This document shows, piece by piece, positions 22,422 through 28,492 of a DNA stretch of 38,812 bases. Position 1 is the first letter of the stretch; every line of letters starts with the position of its first letter. Source of the DNA: Collinsella sp. TF05-9AC (GTDB lineage: Bacteria; Actinomycetota; Coriobacteriia; Coriobacteriales; Coriobacteriaceae); contig NZ_QSSH01000008.1 of the NCBI RefSeq assembly GCF_003438495.1, positions 41,566 to 80,377 on the forward strand. The letters are read 5' to 3'. A program made the translations under genes and the position numbers. Below the pieces are notes generated by a model. That model saw only the letters and a program-made list of their open reading frames with translations. It had not been told where the DNA came from and made no database searches.

Positions 22422-22811
22422 ATGGGTAAGACTTTCAGCTTTGTCTCCGGCGCACTTTTTGGTGCCGCTGCCGGCGCTATTGTCGGCGTTGCTCTGGCCC
22501 CGCGCTCGGGCGCCGAGACCCGCGCCATGGCTGCCGATATCGCCAACGACGCCTGGGACAATATGCGCGACACCTACGAGCACAGCGCCGAGGAGGCCCG
22601 TGCTGCGGTGAATGACTTTGGCCCGATGGTCGACGCCAAGACCGATGACCTGCGCGCCAAGGTCGACCTGGCCCGCGAGCGCATGGACCAGCTGCGCGAG
22701 CAGCTCAACGACGCCATTTCGGGCGGCAACGTGACGCCTGCCGCCGACGTCGTGGTCGAGAACGCCGTCGAGGCTGATACCGAGGCTGCGGAGCCCTCGA
22801 CCGAGGCATAA
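22422..22811 (+). CDS. YtxH domain-containing protein
   Basis: This 129-residue small protein begins with a glycine/alanine-rich membrane helix (FSFVSGALFGAAAGAIVGVALAPRSG), the hallmark of YtxH proteins. A charged, helical amphipathic segment (AADIANDAWDNMRDTYEHS... DLRAKVDLARERMDQLREQL) and an acidic tail follow. YtxH proteins are linked to envelope or general stress in Gram-positives; their biochemical role is not known. The ATG at 22422 has GGAGAGG 7 bp upstream; ATG 22416 overlaps that site too closely. The stop overlaps the next start (TAATG), so it is translationally coupled to the PRC-barrel-like gene. Confidence 0.88.
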   Translation: MGKTFSFVSGALFGAAAGAIVGVALAPRSGAETRAMAADIANDAWDNMRDTYEHSAEEARAAVNDFGPMVDAKTDDLRAKVDLARERMDQLREQLNDAISGGNVTPAADVVVENAVEADTEAAEPSTEA

Positions 22812-23566
22812 TGCGCGCCGGGGATTTTGTCGGCGCCAAGATCTATCGCAAGCCTACCGAGGACAAGCGCACCAAAAAGGACGGCACGCCGCGCAGCCCT
22901 AAAAAGCTCGGAAAGATTCACTTTCCGGTCTTTACTCCGGGCGGTACGCGCGTGGTCGGCTTTATGGTCCGCCAGTCCGATATCGCGGGCATGATCGAGC
23001 GCCCCGACCGATTCGTAGCGCTCGACGCCATTGGTGTCTACGAGGGCGCCATCGCGGTCGATGACGTCAAGGGCACCTACGATGCCGCCGCCGCCAAGCG
23101 CCTCGACATCAACCTGGACGATTGCATCATCTGGGTCGGTATGGACGTGCGCACGGAATCGGGCGACGTCGTGGGCTATTGCTCGGACGTGGAGTTCAAG
23201 CCACGCTCGGGCATCGTGCAGGCATTCTATGTGACCGCCGGTGCTGCTTCGAGTGTTTTGGTTGGTGACACGCAGGTGCCGCCGACGATGCTGCGCGGCT
23301 ATGCGGACGGCGCGATGATTGTTTCGGACGAGGTCAAGTCGCTCGGGTATTCGGGCGGCGCCGCCGCAAAGGCTGCCGAGGCAAGCGTCGTGGTGGGCGA
23401 TAAGGTCAAGAAGGGCGCCAAGGTGCTCGATGACAAGGGATCGGTTGCCGTGGACAAAGGCAGTCGCGCACTGGGCAAGCAGCTCGGCAAGACGCGCGGC
23501 ATGTTCAAGGCCTTTAAGGACGAATACCAAAAGGCGAGCGGAGGCTCGTCAAAAGCTACAAAATAG
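22811..23566 (+). CDS. PRC-barrel-like protein
   Basis: This 251-residue soluble protein has beta-rich segments of PRC-barrel character: GAKIYRKP and KLGKIHFPVFTPGGTRVVGFMVRQSDIAGMI near the N-terminus, and DCIIWVGMDVRTESGDVVGYCSDVEFKPRSGIVQAFYVTAGAAS in the middle, followed by a Lys/Ala/Gly-rich helical tail (residues about 180-251). PRC-barrel domains act as small adaptor folds in RNA processing, photosynthetic assembly or ion-transport proteins. Here the partner is unknown. Its start overlaps the YtxH stop, so the pair is expressed together. A perfect-stem hairpin follows at 23588-23617. Confidence 0.75.
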   Translation: MRAGDFVGAKIYRKPTEDKRTKKDGTPRSPKKLGKIHFPVFTPGGTRVVGFMVRQSDIAGMIERPDRFVALDAIGVYEGAIAVDDVKGTYDAAAAKRLDINLDDCIIWVGMDVRTESGDVVGYCSDVEFKPRSGIVQAFYVTAGAASSVLVGDTQVPPTMLRGYADGAMIVSDEVKSLGYSGGAAAKAAEASVVVGDKVKKGAKVLDDKGSVAVDKGSRALGKQLGKTRGMFKAFKDEYQKASGGSSKATK

Positions 23567-23638: not shown

Positions 23639-25045
23639 ATGCGCCAAAACGGATCCAACTTAAACGGGCGTTCGGGTGCGCGTCCGACGGCGCGCCGCGA
23701 CCTGGGGCAGCTGCCCAGCGGTCAGCGCAAGCGTCACCGTAAGCCCGGCGCGATGTATCTCAACCATAGCCGCGGCTTTAGCGGCCGCAGCGCTCGCATC
23801 GGCAACAGCCGTACGCCCCGTCGTTCGTCTCGCTTGCCCTATGCGCTCATTGCCGTGGGTTGCGCACTCGTGCTGTTTATCGCTGCCGTCGTGGGCTACG
23901 TCAACCGCAGTGTGGACGTGGAGCTCAACGGCCAGAAGACCGCGGTGCGTGTGGGCTCTACGCTGCAGAATCTCATCGACGACCAGGAGTTGACTGACAC
24001 CTACGACGCAGGCGACCTGCTGGCCGTCGATGACAGCGTGCTCAAGCGCCATGGGGGCGAAAAGCTGTCGGTGAAGGTCGACGGCAAGCGCGTGAAGCAG
24101 GGCAAATGGGATAGCCGCGAACTTGAGGGCGGCGAGAAGGTGACGGTCAAGGATGGCCGTAACATCTACGAGAAGCACGAGGTTCAGGCTACGGTTATCG
24201 AGCCCAAGCTCAAGGTCGAGGGTACGGGCGCTATCGAGTATGTGCAGACGTGGGGTGTCCAGGGCCGCTCCGAGGTGTGGGTTGGTGAGCAGTCGGGCAA
24301 GACGCAAGACCGCGGCGAGGTTGTGCCCGCCACCGATTGCGTCGTTGCGTGCGCCAGCGTGGCGCCCAAGGGCAACAAAAAGTACGTGGCGCTGACGTTT
24401 GACGAGGGTCCGAGCGGCGCCACCAAGCAGATCCTGCAGGTGCTCAAGGAAAAGGGCGTCACCGCGACGTTCTTCCTTTCGGGCGATGCGGCCGAGGCCT
24501 CGCCTGCCACGGCCAAGGCGATTGTCGATGCCGGGTGCGAGATCGGATCCAACAGCTACAGCGACGATTCGCTCAAGGGTCGGGACCGTGAGGCGGTACG
24601 CGAACAGATCACGAAAGGCACCGATGCGATTAAGTCGGCGACCGGCGTGAAGACGATGCTGCTGCGTGCTCCCTACGCTGCCTTTGACGAGCAAAACTGG
24701 ATTGATGCGATGGACCTGGTCTCCGCCGTGGTCTCGTGGAATATTGACTCGGGCGACTGGCTGCTCAACGGTGCCGACGAGCAAGTCTCGACGGTGCTCG
24801 ATTCGGTGACGCCGGGCAATATCGTGCTGCTCACCGATAGAGACGAATGCGCCGAGCAGACACTCGAGGCGCTGCCGCAGATTATCGACGGCCTTGTCGC
24901 CGACGGCTACAAGATCGTGACGCTCAGCGACCTGGTCAAGACAGACACGTCGCTGAGCAAAAAGCTCACCTCGTTGACGAAGGTCGCCATGCCCAAGGAC
25001 GCCGTGTTCCCCCAACTTGCCGAGGACGACGACACCACAGAGTAG
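23639..25045 (+). CDS. Polysaccharide deacetylase-like membrane protein with degenerate active site
   Basis: This 468-residue protein has a basic cytoplasmic N-terminus (1 to about 74), one membrane helix (about 75-97, YALIAVGCALVLFIAAVVGY) and a DUF348/G5-like region (VDVELNGQKTAVRVGSTLQNLIDD, later GGEKVTVKDGRNIYEK). The NodB fold follows from residue about 248. NodB motif 1 reads TFDEGP (D255 kept, metal Asp changed to E256). Motif 2 reads GSNSYSDD where HTYSH is expected, so both metal-binding histidines are lost (N305, D309). RAPY and DSGDW are kept. Motif 5 reads IVLLTD with T399 replacing the catalytic histidine. It is therefore probably a non-catalytic envelope protein that binds glycan or another ligand. 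The start follows GGGGGAGGG. Confidence 0.85.
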   Translation: MRQNGSNLNGRSGARPTARRDLGQLPSGQRKRHRKPGAMYLNHSRGFSGRSARIGNSRTPRRSSRLPYALIAVGCALVLFIAAVVGYVNRSVDVELNGQKTAVRVGSTLQNLIDDQELTDTYDAGDLLAVDDSVLKRHGGEKLSVKVDGKRVKQGKWDSRELEGGEKVTVKDGRNIYEKHEVQATVIEPKLKVEGTGAIEYVQTWGVQGRSEVWVGEQSGKTQDRGEVVPATDCVVACASVAPKGNKKYVALTFDEGPSGATKQILQVLKEKGVTATFFLSGDAAEASPATAKAIVDAGCEIGSNSYSDDSLKGRDREAVREQITKGTDAIKSATGVKTMLLRAPYAAFDEQNWIDAMDLVSAVVSWNIDSGDWLLNGADEQVSTVLDSVTPGNIVLLTDRDECAEQTLEALPQIIDGLVADGYKIVTLSDLVKTDTSLSKKLTSLTKVAMPKDAVFPQLAEDDDTTE

Positions 25046-25076
25046 TCATTGGGTAGTCGTTTAAGAACGTCCCCAA
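25045..25076. repeat. REP-like unit at the deacetylase-like gene stop
   Basis: The block TTAAGAACGTCCCCAA (25061-25076), preceded by AGTCG, repeats the unit at 16627-16648, and TAGTCATTGGG at 25043-25053 repeats its border. As there, the repeat abuts the stop codon of the upstream gene. Confidence 0.6.
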
Positions 25077-25156
25077 CAGCTATGTCACGGATGCGTCAGC
25101 GTTTGGTATGCCTGCAATGTGCAGCGCATAAATTCGATGCCGCAGGGCGATGCTGA

Positions 25157-25165
25157 TGCTATAGT
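25157..25165 (+). promoter_or_regulatory. Extended -10 promoter of the Mg2+ transport operon leader
   Basis: TGCTATAGT is an extended -10 element (TG, one base, TATAGT). Transcription starting about 7 bp downstream (near 25172) would give a 5' leader of about 205 nt before the start codon at 25377. Confidence 0.5.
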
Positions 25166-25171
25166 TACTGC

Positions 25172-25376
25172 GGTTAATGAGGGTCAAGAGAAAGGTTACA
25201 GGTGAAATCCAAACCTCGACCATACAGTCGATGACCCCATGCAGGTGCTATTTGCGCATGCACGGGGTGTAAGCGTCGAGCGGCGTGCCGCCCGCGCATG
25301 CGTATACATATCAAACAATCCACGGATAGCGTACCCGTCTGGCCGCGGTCCGCAGGAATAATGATGGGGAGCACCA
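25172..25376 (+). ncRNA. Structured 5' leader RNA with three-way junction, candidate riboswitch
   Basis: Three perfect helices meet at a compact junction. P1 is GGGTCA (25181-25186) with TGACCC (25232-25237). P2 is AGGTT (25193-25197) with AACCT (25212-25216), capped by a loop containing GGTGAAATCC. P3 is CGAC (25217-25220) with GTCG (25227-25230), capped by CATACA. A mutually exclusive hairpin can form from ACCCC (25234-25238) and GGGGT (25264-25268) through a long stem with TATTT loop, and this takes over the 3' strand of P1. Such competition is typical of riboswitches. The consensus of the M-box Mg2+ riboswitch was looked for and not recognised. The downstream genes suggest a Mg2+-related signal. 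There is no oligo-T terminator, so translational control is more likely. Function is inferred. Confidence 0.5.
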
Positions 25377-27221
25377 TTGAATTATCTGAGTGAGATGCTC
25401 AAATTGCCGGTCTTGGACGTCGACGGCGAAAAGCTCGGCGTGGTCAACGATTTTGGCATTGCTACCGGCGAAGTTTTTCCGCACGTGACGTCGCTCGCGT
25501 TCCGCGGTCCCGGCAAGACGCCGTTTATGATCAGCTGGCGCAAGTGGGTCGACCGTATCGACGAGACGGGCGTGTACCTCAAGACGTCGGCCACCGAAAT
25601 CCGCTTTTCGTACCTGCAGCCGACCGAGCTGCTGCTCGCGCGCGATGTTCTCAACAAGCAGATCGTCGACACGCAGGGCATGAAGGTCGTGCGCGTAAAC
25701 GACATCAAGTTCTCCATGTCGGGCGAAAACCAGCTGCGCCTGCTGGGTGCCGAGGTCGGTGCCCGCGGCCTGCTGCGCGCGATTAGCCCCGCGCTCGAGC
25801 ATGTCGTCGAGGGCTTTATGAAGCATCTGGGCAAGCCGCTCAGCGAGGACATCATCGCCTGGTCCTACATGGACCTGCTCGACCGCTCGACCAAGAACAT
25901 CCAGCTCTCGGTGTCGCACAAGACGCTCGGCGAGCTGCACCCTGCCGACATCGCCGACATTATCGAGCAGCTCGACCCGCGCCTACGTGCGCAGGTGTTT
26001 GCGCAGCTCGATACTGCCCAGGCCGCCGAGGCCATCTCGGAGTTCGATGACGATGAGCTTATGACCGAGATGCTCGAGGGTCTGTCCGACACCGACGCAT
26101 CGTCGATGCTGGCCATGATGGACCCGGACGACGCCGCCGATCTGATCGACGAGCTCGATTACGAGAAGGCCGAGAAGCTCTTGCGCCTGATGGGCGTCAA
26201 GGAGGAGAAGGCGATTCGTAATCTGCTGGGCTACGAGGACAACACCGCCGGCCGCATCATGACCTCGGAGTTTGTCTCCCTGCCTGCTACGGCAACGGTC
26301 GGTGACGCCATCGAGGCGATTCGCGAGCTCGACGAGGACTTCGAGAGCGTCTACTACGTCTATACCGAGGATCCGAGCGGCATGCTGACCGGCGTGCTTT
26401 CGCTGCGCACGCTGATCGTAGCCGACCGCGACGCCACGCTGGGTCAGCTGGCCTATCGCGACCTGGTCTATGTGTCGCCCGACGAGGACCAGGAAGACGT
26501 GACGGACGAGATGACCAAGTACGACCTGGTTGCCATCCCTGTCTGCGACGAGAACCGTCATATCCTGGGTATCGTGACCTTTGATGACGCCATGGACGTT
26601 ATCGCCGAGGAGCACCAGGAGGACCTGCAGATCGCAGGCGTCGGCTCGGGCGATAGCGCGTCCGACGACTCGACGAATGTGCTCAGCTGGTTCGTGCATC
26701 GCCAGTACTGGGTTGTCGTGTGGGGCATTGCCTCGTGCATCATGGCAACGGTGCTGGGGACGGCGCTCGGCTCCGCGCATCTGGTGGTGTTCCCCATGTG
26801 CGCCATGCCGCTCGTGCTGCTGGCGGCCTCGCGCATGGTGTCGTTCGTCAAGAACTACTTCCTGGAGTATGACGGTCACGATGACGAGCCCAAGCCGTAT
26901 CTGGGGTTCTTCTTCCAGAGCACGGGCATGGGCCTGATCCTGTCGCTCGTGACCTACCTGTGCGCCCAGCTGGTGCGCACCGCCGCGTTCCCCGACGCGC
27001 CCATGTTTGAGGAACAGCTCTTTACCGGCTGCTTTAACATTGCGGCCATCGTCTGCCTGATTGGCAACATGAGCGCCGTGATTTACCTGATGGTGCTGTT
27101 CTGGCGTGACGAGCATGACCTCAACACGTCGGGCACCGCCATGAACGTTATTGCCGTCATGATCTCGTGCGTAGCGTACTGCGCCGCTGCGGTGCTGCTC
27201 ACCATGTCGGTCATGGGTTAG
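25377..27221 (+). CDS. PRC-MgtE_N-CBS-membrane fusion protein, Mg2+ transport related
   Basis: The 614-residue product has an N-terminal PRC-barrel-like region (8 to about 130; KLPVLDVDGEKLGVVNDFGI, LLLARDVLNKQIVDTQGMKVVRVNDI). An MgtE_N superhelical domain follows (about 180-300; HPADIADIIEQLDP, DPDDAADLIDELDYEKAEKLLRLM), then a CBS pair (about 305-430; AGRIMTSEFVSLPATATVGDAI, VTFDDAMDVIAEEHQED). Five membrane helices from about 441 close the protein. MgtE_N and CBS domains sense intracellular Mg2+ in MgtE channels. The membrane part lacks the GGN.GNQS signature and the conserved NPL...SD segment of true MgtE pores. It may be a divergent channel or a regulator of the co-transcribed NRMT transporter. 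The start is TTG with GGGGAG 5 bp upstream; an in-frame stop lies just before it. Confidence 0.85.
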   Translation: MNYLSEMLKLPVLDVDGEKLGVVNDFGIATGEVFPHVTSLAFRGPGKTPFMISWRKWVDRIDETGVYLKTSATEIRFSYLQPTELLLARDVLNKQIVDTQGMKVVRVNDIKFSMSGENQLRLLGAEVGARGLLRAISPALEHVVEGFMKHLGKPLSEDIIAWSYMDLLDRSTKNIQLSVSHKTLGELHPADIADIIEQLDPRLRAQVFAQLDTAQAAEAISEFDDDELMTEMLEGLSDTDASSMLAMMDPDDAADLIDELDYEKAEKLLRLMGVKEEKAIRNLLGYEDNTAGRIMTSEFVSLPATATVGDAIEAIRELDEDFESVYYVYTEDPSGMLTGVLSLRTLIVADRDATLGQLAYRDLVYVSPDEDQEDVTDEMTKYDLVAIPVCDENRHILGIVTFDDAMDVIAEEHQEDLQIAGVGSGDSASDDSTNVLSWFVHRQYWVVVWGIASCIMATVLGTALGSAHLVVFPMCAMPLVLLAASRMVSFVKNYFLEYDGHDDEPKPYLGFFFQSTGMGLILSLVTYLCAQLVRTAAFPDAPMFEEQLFTGCFNIAAIVCLIGNMSAVIYLMVLFWRDEHDLNTSGTAMNVIAVMISCVAYCAAAVLLTMSVMG

Positions 27222-27229
27222 GTGGTCGC

Positions 27230-28492
27230 GTGCAAAATACCAAGCAAAAGTCGGGCACCAAGCAAAAGTTGACCATCGCGGCCATCTTTGGCGCTATGGG
27301 TCCCGGTCTGCTGGCGGCGCTTTCGGGCAATGACGCTGGCGGCATTGCAACGTATTCCAGCGCGGGCGCCAGCTATGGCTACAAGATGCTCTGGATGCTT
27401 CCCGTCATGACTGTGCTGCTCATCGTGACGCAGGAGACCGCGGCGCGCTGCGGCTGCGTCACGGGCAAGGGCTTGGCATCGCTCATTCGCGAGCGCTTTG
27501 GCGTGCGCAAGAGTGTACTTGCTATGGCGGCGCTGTTGATCGCCAACACGGCTGTGACCATTTCGGAGTTTGCGGGCATCGCGAGTGGCCTTGCTCTGTT
27601 TGGCGTTCCGGCGAGCATCTCGGTGCCGTTGGTGGCGCTGCTGGTGTGGATGCTTACCATGTCGGGTAGTTTCCAGCGCATCGAGAAGATTCTGCTGCTG
27701 GTGAGCTGCGTGTTCGTGACCTATATTGTCGCCGCGTTTATGGCTGGCCCCAACTGGGGTGAGGTCGCGGTCGACCTGGTCGTGCCTAACATTCAAAATG
27801 ACCCCAGCTACGTGTCGCTCGTGGTCGCGACGATCGGTACCACCATCGCGCCGTGGATGATTTTCTTGGCGCAGAACAACGTGGTCGATAAGAACGCGGG
27901 CGAGGACGATATCGTGCTGCAGCGCATCGATACCGTGAGCGGCTCGCTTGCTGCCGATGTCATTGCCGGCTTTATTATCATCACGACTGGTACGGTGTTG
28001 TTCCCGGCGGGTATTCAGATTAGCGACGCTGCCGACGCCGCCCGTGCGCTGGAACCTATCGCGGGTCAGTGGTCCACGGTGCTGTTCGCCTCGGGCCTGG
28101 TCGCCGCGAGCTTCTTGGCTGCCTGCGTGCTGCCGGGCGTTACGTCCAGCGCCATCTGCGAGGCATTTGGCTGGGAGCGCGGCGCCGATCGCAGTTGGGA
28201 CGAGGCTCCGGTCTATCGCGGCATCATTACAGCCATTATCGGTATCTCGGCCGTGCTGGTGCTCATGCCCGGCGTCGATCTGTTCCAGATCATGATGACC
28301 TCGCAGGTCATCAACGGCGTGCTGTTGCCTGTGGTTCTGGTGTTCCAGGTGGTTATCGCCGCCGACCGTCACATTATGGGCGCCAACCGCAACGGCCGCG
28401 TGTGGAACGTGCTCACGTGGGCGACCATCGGCGTGATCACGGTGCTGACGATCGTCATGTTTGTGCTGCAGGCGATGGGTTACAGCGCTTAA
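27230..28492 (+). CDS. NRAMP-related (SLC11/NRMT-like) Mg2+ transporter
   Basis: This 420-residue membrane protein has about eleven helices. The first-helix metal motif of NRAMPs, DPGN, reads D35-A-G-G38 here (GNDAGGIATYS). The sixth-helix MPH motif reads A207-P-W (GTTIAPWMIFLAQNNVVDK). Loss of the metal-binding methionine is a trait described for NRMTs, the Mg2+-transporting branch of the SLC11 family characterised from Eggerthella, a related genus. Mn2+/Fe2+ selectivity is therefore unlikely. The GTG start at 27230 follows AGGTGG and comes 9 bp after the PRC-MgtE_N stop, so the two are one operon. A strong terminator follows at 28512. Confidence 0.88.
   Translation: MQNTKQKSGTKQKLTIAAIFGAMGPGLLAALSGNDAGGIATYSSAGASYGYKMLWMLPVMTVLLIVTQETAARCGCVTGKGLASLIRERFGVRKSVLAMAALLIANTAVTISEFAGIASGLALFGVPASISVPLVALLVWMLTMSGSFQRIEKILLLVSCVFVTYIVAAFMAGPNWGEVAVDLVVPNIQNDPSYVSLVVATIGTTIAPWMIFLAQNNVVDKNAGEDDIVLQRIDTVSGSLAADVIAGFIIITTGTVLFPAGIQISDAADAARALEPIAGQWSTVLFASGLVAASFLAACVLPGVTSSAICEAFGWERGADRSWDEAPVYRGIITAIIGISAVLVLMPGVDLFQIMMTSQVINGVLLPVVLVFQVVIAADRHIMGANRNGRVWNVLTWATIGVITVLTIVMFVLQAMGYSA

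Follow-up and report, generated by a model that had tools for sequence, protein, structure and literature searches.

The leader studied here lies in a window of 38,812 nt (the whole stretch of DNA that was analysed) from Collinsella sp. TF05-9AC. It occupies window positions 25172-25376, folds as a whole with a z-score of −2.70, and ends where the first of two genes on the same strand begins. The features of the locus, in window coordinates, are as follows.

25157-25165, + strand: promoter-like extended −10 element, TGCTATAGT, recognised by eye; transcription would begin near 25172
25181-25186, + strand: 5′ strand of helix P1, GGGTCA, pairing with 25232-25237
25188-25195, + strand: Shine-Dalgarno sequence (SD) of the upstream open reading frame (uORF), GAGAAAGG; a similar sequence precedes most listed uORF starts
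25193-25197/25212-25216, + strand: helix P2
25202-25234, + strand: uORF (leader peptide), GTG start, VKSKPRPYSR*, with in-frame conservation across families
25217-25220/25227-25230, + strand: helix P3
25232-25237, + strand: 3′ strand of P1, TGACCC, which holds the uORF stop codon and is common to hairpin A (pairing, covariation)
25234-25268, + strand: hairpin A, whose 5′ arm carries the anti-SD (z −3.83 and cross-family permutation)
25244-25249, + strand: anti-SD, GGTGCT, which pairs with 25370-25375 in the MFE fold and covaries across families with the gene SD and spacer
25366-25375, + strand: SD and spacer of the PRC-MgtE_N gene, GGGGAGCACC, complementary to the anti-SD
25377-27221, + strand: PRC-MgtE_N-CBS protein, 614 aa, TTG start (PF03448, PF00571, PF05239)
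27167-28492, + strand: Nramp family protein, candidate NrmT-like Mg2+ transporter (an ORF whose start may be 27236, not 27167)

The two downstream genes had been taken for Mg2+-transport genes, and Pfam agrees: the first encodes PRC, MgtE_N and CBS domains and the second an Nramp protein, with a PF01566 match of 296 bits spanning 27236-28489. The nearest named relatives are Collinsella aerofaciens and Collinsella sp., at 98-99% identity over the protein. The Nramp partner gene fits a Mg2+ role because NrmT-type Nramp proteins carry Mg2+ and, in Clostridium, accompany MgtE_N genes under M-boxes, according to PMC4072509. Two genes upstream of the leader, a 251-aa protein at 22811-23566 has no Pfam match.

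The original prediction proposed a new riboswitch for a metal or related ligand, transcribed from an extended −10 promoter and lacking a recognisable M-box consensus. The −10 element is visible by eye, but a consensus scan that also requires a −35 element finds no promoter in the leader region. The search against Rfam likewise returns neither an M-box nor any other known class: no family reaches the gathering threshold anywhere in the window, and none appears at 25046-25400 even at E ≤ 10. An attenuator working through an intrinsic terminator downstream of the uORF was ruled out, since a search for a GC hairpin followed by a T run finds no + strand terminator-like site in 25040-25400. BLAST with the leader gives a match in 30 of 58 related genomes, which is more than chance, and in 29 of those 30 loci the motif was located by pattern, ahead of the PRC-MgtE_N gene.

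The original prediction had also singled out a conserved-looking GGTGAAATCC loop. The sequence is conserved, but it is the start region (GTG AAA TCC) of the uORF, which reads GTG AAA TCC AAA CCT CGA CCA TAC AGT CGA TGA and whose TGA stop codon falls inside the P1 3′ strand. The same reading frame recurs across the class. Leaders were sampled via the PRC-MgtE_N gene itself, so that presence of the uORF was no condition of sampling. The gene is present in 340 of 396 genomes; upstream regions were taken from 108, near-identical Collinsella and unlisted genomes being left out, and to these were added 80 loci from three families and 30 genomes from others. L185 and L190 (duplicates of L311 and L312) and L340 (no gene start) were dropped before the count of 216.

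A uORF is found in 206 of these 216 leaders, 178 by a strict pattern and 28 by eye. Shuffled leaders fit the strict pattern 0.5 times on average and 3 times at most (50 rounds), random 300-nt windows of the sampled loci, leaders included, fit it in 140 of 4000 cases, and PRC-MgtE_N homologues of other classes in 0 of 11. Of the 28 uORFs that the pattern misses, 3 have an extra codon, 6 replace Ser with another residue, 4 lack P-x-S, 13 have a longer end and 2 lie further upstream. The ten leaders scored as misses are L126, L170, L235, L256, L311, L315, L336, L337, L338 and L339, among which L235, with just 55 nt of upstream sequence, and L256, whose gene is partial, lack usable sequence and were retained. 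Six extra pattern matches (L199-L204) were considered as second copies of the element; L203 lies outside long ORFs and the other five inside them, and not one can be read as a uORF of this kind.

The uORF spans 6-14 codons across families, with frame, start, SD and stop retained, and its end lies some 50-280 nt before the PRC-MgtE_N gene. The peptides of the families, designated f1 to f17, are listed below.

f1 (Collinsella and kin): VKSKPRPHSR*, VKPKPRPHSS*
f2: LKVRKSKPHSM* and similar
f3: LKPRPHSMC*
f4: VDDFSHSH*
f5: MKPRPHSR*
f6: VNDHPHSSDHIHKP*, VSGLDHPHSC*, VNEHPHSN*
f7: VKPRPHSS*
f9: VKPHQPRSK*
f10: VKPHKPHST*
f11: VKPHSTQPR*
f12: VTPSSP*, VTPFSP*, VRPFSR*
f15 and f17: mostly VKPHSP*

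Many f5 leaders read ATG AAA CCT CGA CCT CAC AGT CGA TGA. In two f11 leaders, L317 and L330, the usual TAG stop has become CAG and the uORF is three codons longer; by eye, the P1 3′ strand has shifted along with the new stop (ATCGAG/CTCGAT and ACCGAG/CTCGGT).

Codon usage within the uORF is uneven. Specifically, the Pro codons vary synonymously (CCT 133, CCA 44, CCG 12, CCC 5), as do those for His (CAC 126, CAT 22) and Lys. The Ser of P-x-S, at 25226-25228 in the window, is AGT in 193 of 194 uORFs, the single exception being AGC in L257, and the R-P motif has CGA for its Arg in 107 of 107 leaders (f1, f3, f5 and f7). In six window genes AGT accounts for 8 of 164 Ser codons and CGA for 5 of 140 Arg codons, and the AGT share in PRC-MgtE_N genes is 9/560 in f2, 11/523 in f12 and 55/613 in f6. 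AGT and CGA are thus near-invariant in the uORF yet rare in genes, which argues for selection on codons or bases beyond the peptide alone; a peptide model alone leaves the near-invariance of AGT unexplained. Furthermore, in six f5 leaders Ser is swapped for Arg or Cys with GT retained (CGT, TGT), which hints at a need at the level of bases.

The pairings P1, P2 and P3 and the competing hairpin, here called hairpin A, are all present as originally positioned. The isolated element at 25178-25240 folds at −18.0 kcal/mol (z −2.74; 2 of 200 shuffles equally good), and 25232-25270, which includes hairpin A, at −21.7 kcal/mol (z −3.83; 0 of 200). P1 joins a strand lying at or close to the uORF SD to bases of the uORF stop and just behind it. 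Hairpin A excludes P1, because both use the same post-stop strand. Pairs were counted in 32 of 35 f1 leaders, omitting L111, L115 and L116 (extra codon), in an alignment in which MAFFT puts the P1 5′ strand wrongly in some rows. Two P1 pairs are changed on both sides, one being C-G in 16 and U-A in 9 of 32 leaders and the other U-A in 21 and C-G in 3, while no P1 pair holds in all 32 rows, the failures numbering 3 to 7 per pair. The stop codon tracks the P1 5′ strand in f1, with TGA beside GGGTCA in 19 of 35 leaders and TAA beside GGGTTA in 6. Elsewhere P1 has other bases (GGGTCAT/ATGACCC in f5, GGGCTA/TAGCCC in f6, GGACCT/AGGTCC in f12; f2 is non-uniform), and the position of its 5′ strand differs between families.

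The covariation test set for the helices therefore came out unevenly: P1 has compensatory change, but support is absent for P2 and P3. P2 is paired in only 61% of f1 cells: two of its five pairs are open in 23 and 24 of the 32 sequences, and a double change occurs once, in a single sequence. Of the four P3 pairs, three never vary and the other fails in 9 of 32. An aptamer junction of P1, P2 and P3 was accordingly rejected, P2 and P3 being unsupported in this 32-sequence alignment. Taken jointly, the three helices reach a number of paired cells matched by 3 of 500 shuffles and a covariation score matched by 2 of 500; their double-change pairs and pair types are no better than shuffles (401 and 442 of 500 reach them), and with a slide of −3 the count of double-change cells is 12, compared with 13 in the true register.

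Permutation, shuffle, stop-codon, ribosome-block and SD-spacer analyses all start from 202 leaders (195 used in the shuffles, 199 with the ribosome block and 191 for SD-spacer pairing). In a cross-family permutation of 60 rounds over 21 families, with up to 8 leaders from each, no round was as good as the true combination for P1 (−10.6 versus −8.1, sd 0.4), for hairpin A (−15.2 versus −12.1, sd 0.5) or for the anti-SD:SD pairing (−16.5 versus −12.3, sd 0.8). The hairpin proposed to capture the 3′ strand of P1 thus has a counterpart in other families. Examples of anti-SD complementarity are GCCGTCTCC with GGAGACGGC in L316 and GGTCTCCTCC with GGAGGAGACC in L237. Pairing with the SD-spacer extends beyond the core (1.51 versus 0.73; 0 of 300 rounds as high, 191 leaders); within families, 0 of 300 rounds are as high in f5 and 6 in f2, and the test is not significant in f1, f6 and f12 (149, 213 and 18 of 300). 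Against dinucleotide shuffles, support for the pairings is moderate: of 195 leaders, those in which no more than 5% of shuffles equal the true pairing number 42 for P1, 98 for hairpin A and 113 for anti-SD:SD.

The M-box (RF00380) reappears in relatives. It is found in 22 of 59 class genomes, including 15 of 15 of f12, and in 0 of 23 genomes of f1, f2 and f5 (Infernal, stricter filters); none occurs at E ≤ 1 in 16 scanned loci of f1, f2, f5 and f6. The orthologous PRC-MgtE_N gene is preceded by it in L258, L262 and L277 of a first set, in 13 of 20 loci of a second set, and in L331, L332, L335 and L336 among the next 20, where L298 belongs to another class. Nineteen in-class loci carry both elements, with the uORF between the M-box and the gene. 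Loci of f3, f4, f7 and f11 have the uORF and no M-box at the gathering threshold, and L336 is the reverse of the Collinsella case, with an M-box ahead of the gene and no recognisable uORF. A known riboswitch other than the M-box was also sought and set aside, as 20 other loci gave just M-box, tRNA and sub-threshold noise.

The uORF is thus more widely kept, and the M-box is distributed patchily, a pattern compatible with its loss on the way to Collinsella. That sister families carry an M-box in front of the shared uORF and gene is the best evidence that the leader may answer to Mg2+. Two further observations concern the region upstream of the uORF. In L320, positions 1249-1277, between M-box and uORF, hold a hairpin CCCCTG...CAGGGG followed by TTTTT that by eye resembles an intrinsic terminator; a terminator scan with loops limited to 8 does not list it. 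In L206, L216, L333 and L334, tRNA genes lie upstream of the leader, and the transcript may therefore begin in a tRNA unit there.

What comparison brings out is a uORF, a strand predicted to pair either as P1 or within hairpin A, and an anti-SD able to pair with the gene SD. A conserved cis-regulatory leader ahead of the Mg2+-transport operon is therefore real, as originally predicted, but its reading as an aptamer is unsupported: the leader is probably no new metal-binding RNA but a very short class-wide coding sequence; translating it appears to flip the RNA between folds that conceal or expose the ribosome-binding site of the transporter gene. We propose a translational attenuator run by a leader peptide, with wiring like that of mgtQ, a different peptide and probably a response to low Mg2+, and give this reading a probability of roughly 0.6. 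Where the uORF is idle or promptly finished, P1 would form and hairpin A would lose its base, and the freed anti-SD would then mask the gene SD (OFF). A ribosome lingering early in the uORF would block P1, so that hairpin A could hold the anti-SD and leave the gene SD open (ON). Low Mg2+ would hamper ribosomes on a uORF of slow codons, the candidate slow features being the rare AAA, CCT/CCA, CGA and AGT codons and the Pro-containing peptide, and the transporter would therefore be made when Mg2+ is short. From these comparisons, control of the PRC-MgtE_N gene by the uORF plus a fold switch is highly likely; Mg2+ is the likely signal; and that early lingering means ON, by analogy, could fall either way.

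Static folding with a ribosome footprint blocked, applied to 199 leaders and run without a shuffled control, bears on this sign. With the modelled ribosome at the uORF start, the gene SD opens in 98 leaders and closes in 36; the corresponding figures are 72 and 48 at mid-uORF, 41 and 97 at the penultimate sense codon, and 90 and 65 at the stop codon. The model thus leans towards the proposed sign with the ribosome early on the uORF, but is mixed at the stop. For the window leader the modelled SD opening energy is nearly flat across ribosome positions (3.9 to 4.3 kcal/mol), with no switch in static folding.

Other readings account for parts of the same evidence. The uORF keeps rare Pro, Arg and Ser codons, as would an attenuator that senses starvation for Pro, His, Ser or Arg through tRNA, with Mg2+ involved merely indirectly, and the Salmonella mgtP leader does respond to charged tRNA-Pro (PMC8092293). 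However, several families keep only one Pro before the last residue, Arg and His are not universal (VTPSSP*), and the upstream M-box in other families points to Mg2+; we consider such sensing unlikely. A metal or ligand riboswitch in which the P1-P2-P3 junction is the aptamer and the uORF incidental would explain the good fold of the single sequence (z −2.74), the covariation of P1 and the hold on AGT and CGA at the nucleotide level. It becomes very doubtful given the lack of support for P2 and P3, the synonymous variation of Pro, His and Lys codons, and the enclosed stretch, which ranges between 6 and 14 codons in length but keeps an open frame, a start, an SD and a stop, something at odds with a compact aptamer core. 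Simple translational coupling, in which uORF ribosomes open the gene start or re-initiate there and nothing is sensed, would need the uORF and anti-SD alone, and a modelled ribosome at the uORF start does open the SD more often than it closes it; a distance of about 50 to 280 nt to the gene, together with codons and two mutually exclusive folds that are strongly conserved, makes this a poor prospect. A working micropeptide, such as a transporter subunit or a trans regulator of the kind proposed for mycobacterial Rv1805A, would fit peptide conservation within families, but with as few as six codons and almost fully different peptides between families it is extremely improbable.

A leader-peptide attenuator of the kind we propose has relatives among known systems. 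In Salmonella, mgtQ is an 8-aa uORF ahead of mgtB whose leader, with the uORF as region 1, folds either as 1:2 and 3:4, with the RBS masked, or as 2:3, with the anti-RBS sequestered, and the Mg2+ transporter is translated more when ribosomes slow on the uORF (PMC8092293). The leaders described here resemble it in placing a short uORF before a Mg2+ transporter gene and in having sequences able to form exclusive folds, one of which would mask the RBS; unlike them, mgtQ uses Asp/Glu destabilisation and sits within an operon (PMC8092293). The uORFs here are mostly free of Asp and Glu (f6 has Asp), mostly contain P-x-S with AGT, and occur class-wide in the 5′ leader of another gene family. In Salmonella and E. 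coli, the Pro-containing leader peptide mgtL of mgtA senses low Mg2+ through its translation and acts on transcription elongation. The likeness is a Pro-containing peptide before a Mg2+ transporter; the peptide is different, and SD masking is indicated here.

The nearest Actinomycetota case found among the matches listed is the mycobacterial pe20 M-box leader, which has uORFs and an anti-SD translational platform, and whose uORF2 (Rv1805A) is described as mycobacteria-specific (PMC12810186). It is likewise an Actinomycetota Mg2+ leader with uORFs and an anti-SD, and other families of our sample do have an M-box upstream; unlike it, the window has no M-box.

By eye alone, KPRPHSR resembles the conserved C-terminus PRPPHPRL with which apidaecin traps release factors at stop codons (PMC11549390), a resemblance to type II PrAMPs. 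Unlike apidaecin, the peptides here are bacterial, nascent and 6-14 aa long, and the likeness is missing in families such as the one with VTPSSP*. Drosocin stands beside apidaecin in this comparison. The uORF peptides might even be class-wide minimal arrest peptides, down to fMet-Lys-Pro-His-Ser-Pro, with Mg2+- and AGU-dependent stalling and possibly a release factor held at the stop in apidaecin style, so that the terminating ribosome would be the Mg2+ sensor and, in the Collinsella line, would have replaced an ancestral M-box; we regard this as improbable.

Four uORF peptide strings led to no paper in the open-licence literature, and the matches listed there on leader peptides, Mg2+ transport and Coriobacteriia relatives show no description of such a uORF family. 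If true, our proposal extends the short list of known Mg2+ controls based on translation by a leader-peptide family that is class-wide and undescribed, and does so in gut bacteria where the matches listed show no such control. The six-codon forms with a near-invariant rare codon would be unusually small material for the study of translational sensing. Furthermore, some lineages have an M-box and a uORF on the same gene and others the uORF alone, a natural experiment in which one can therefore ask whether a ribosome can replace a metal riboswitch.
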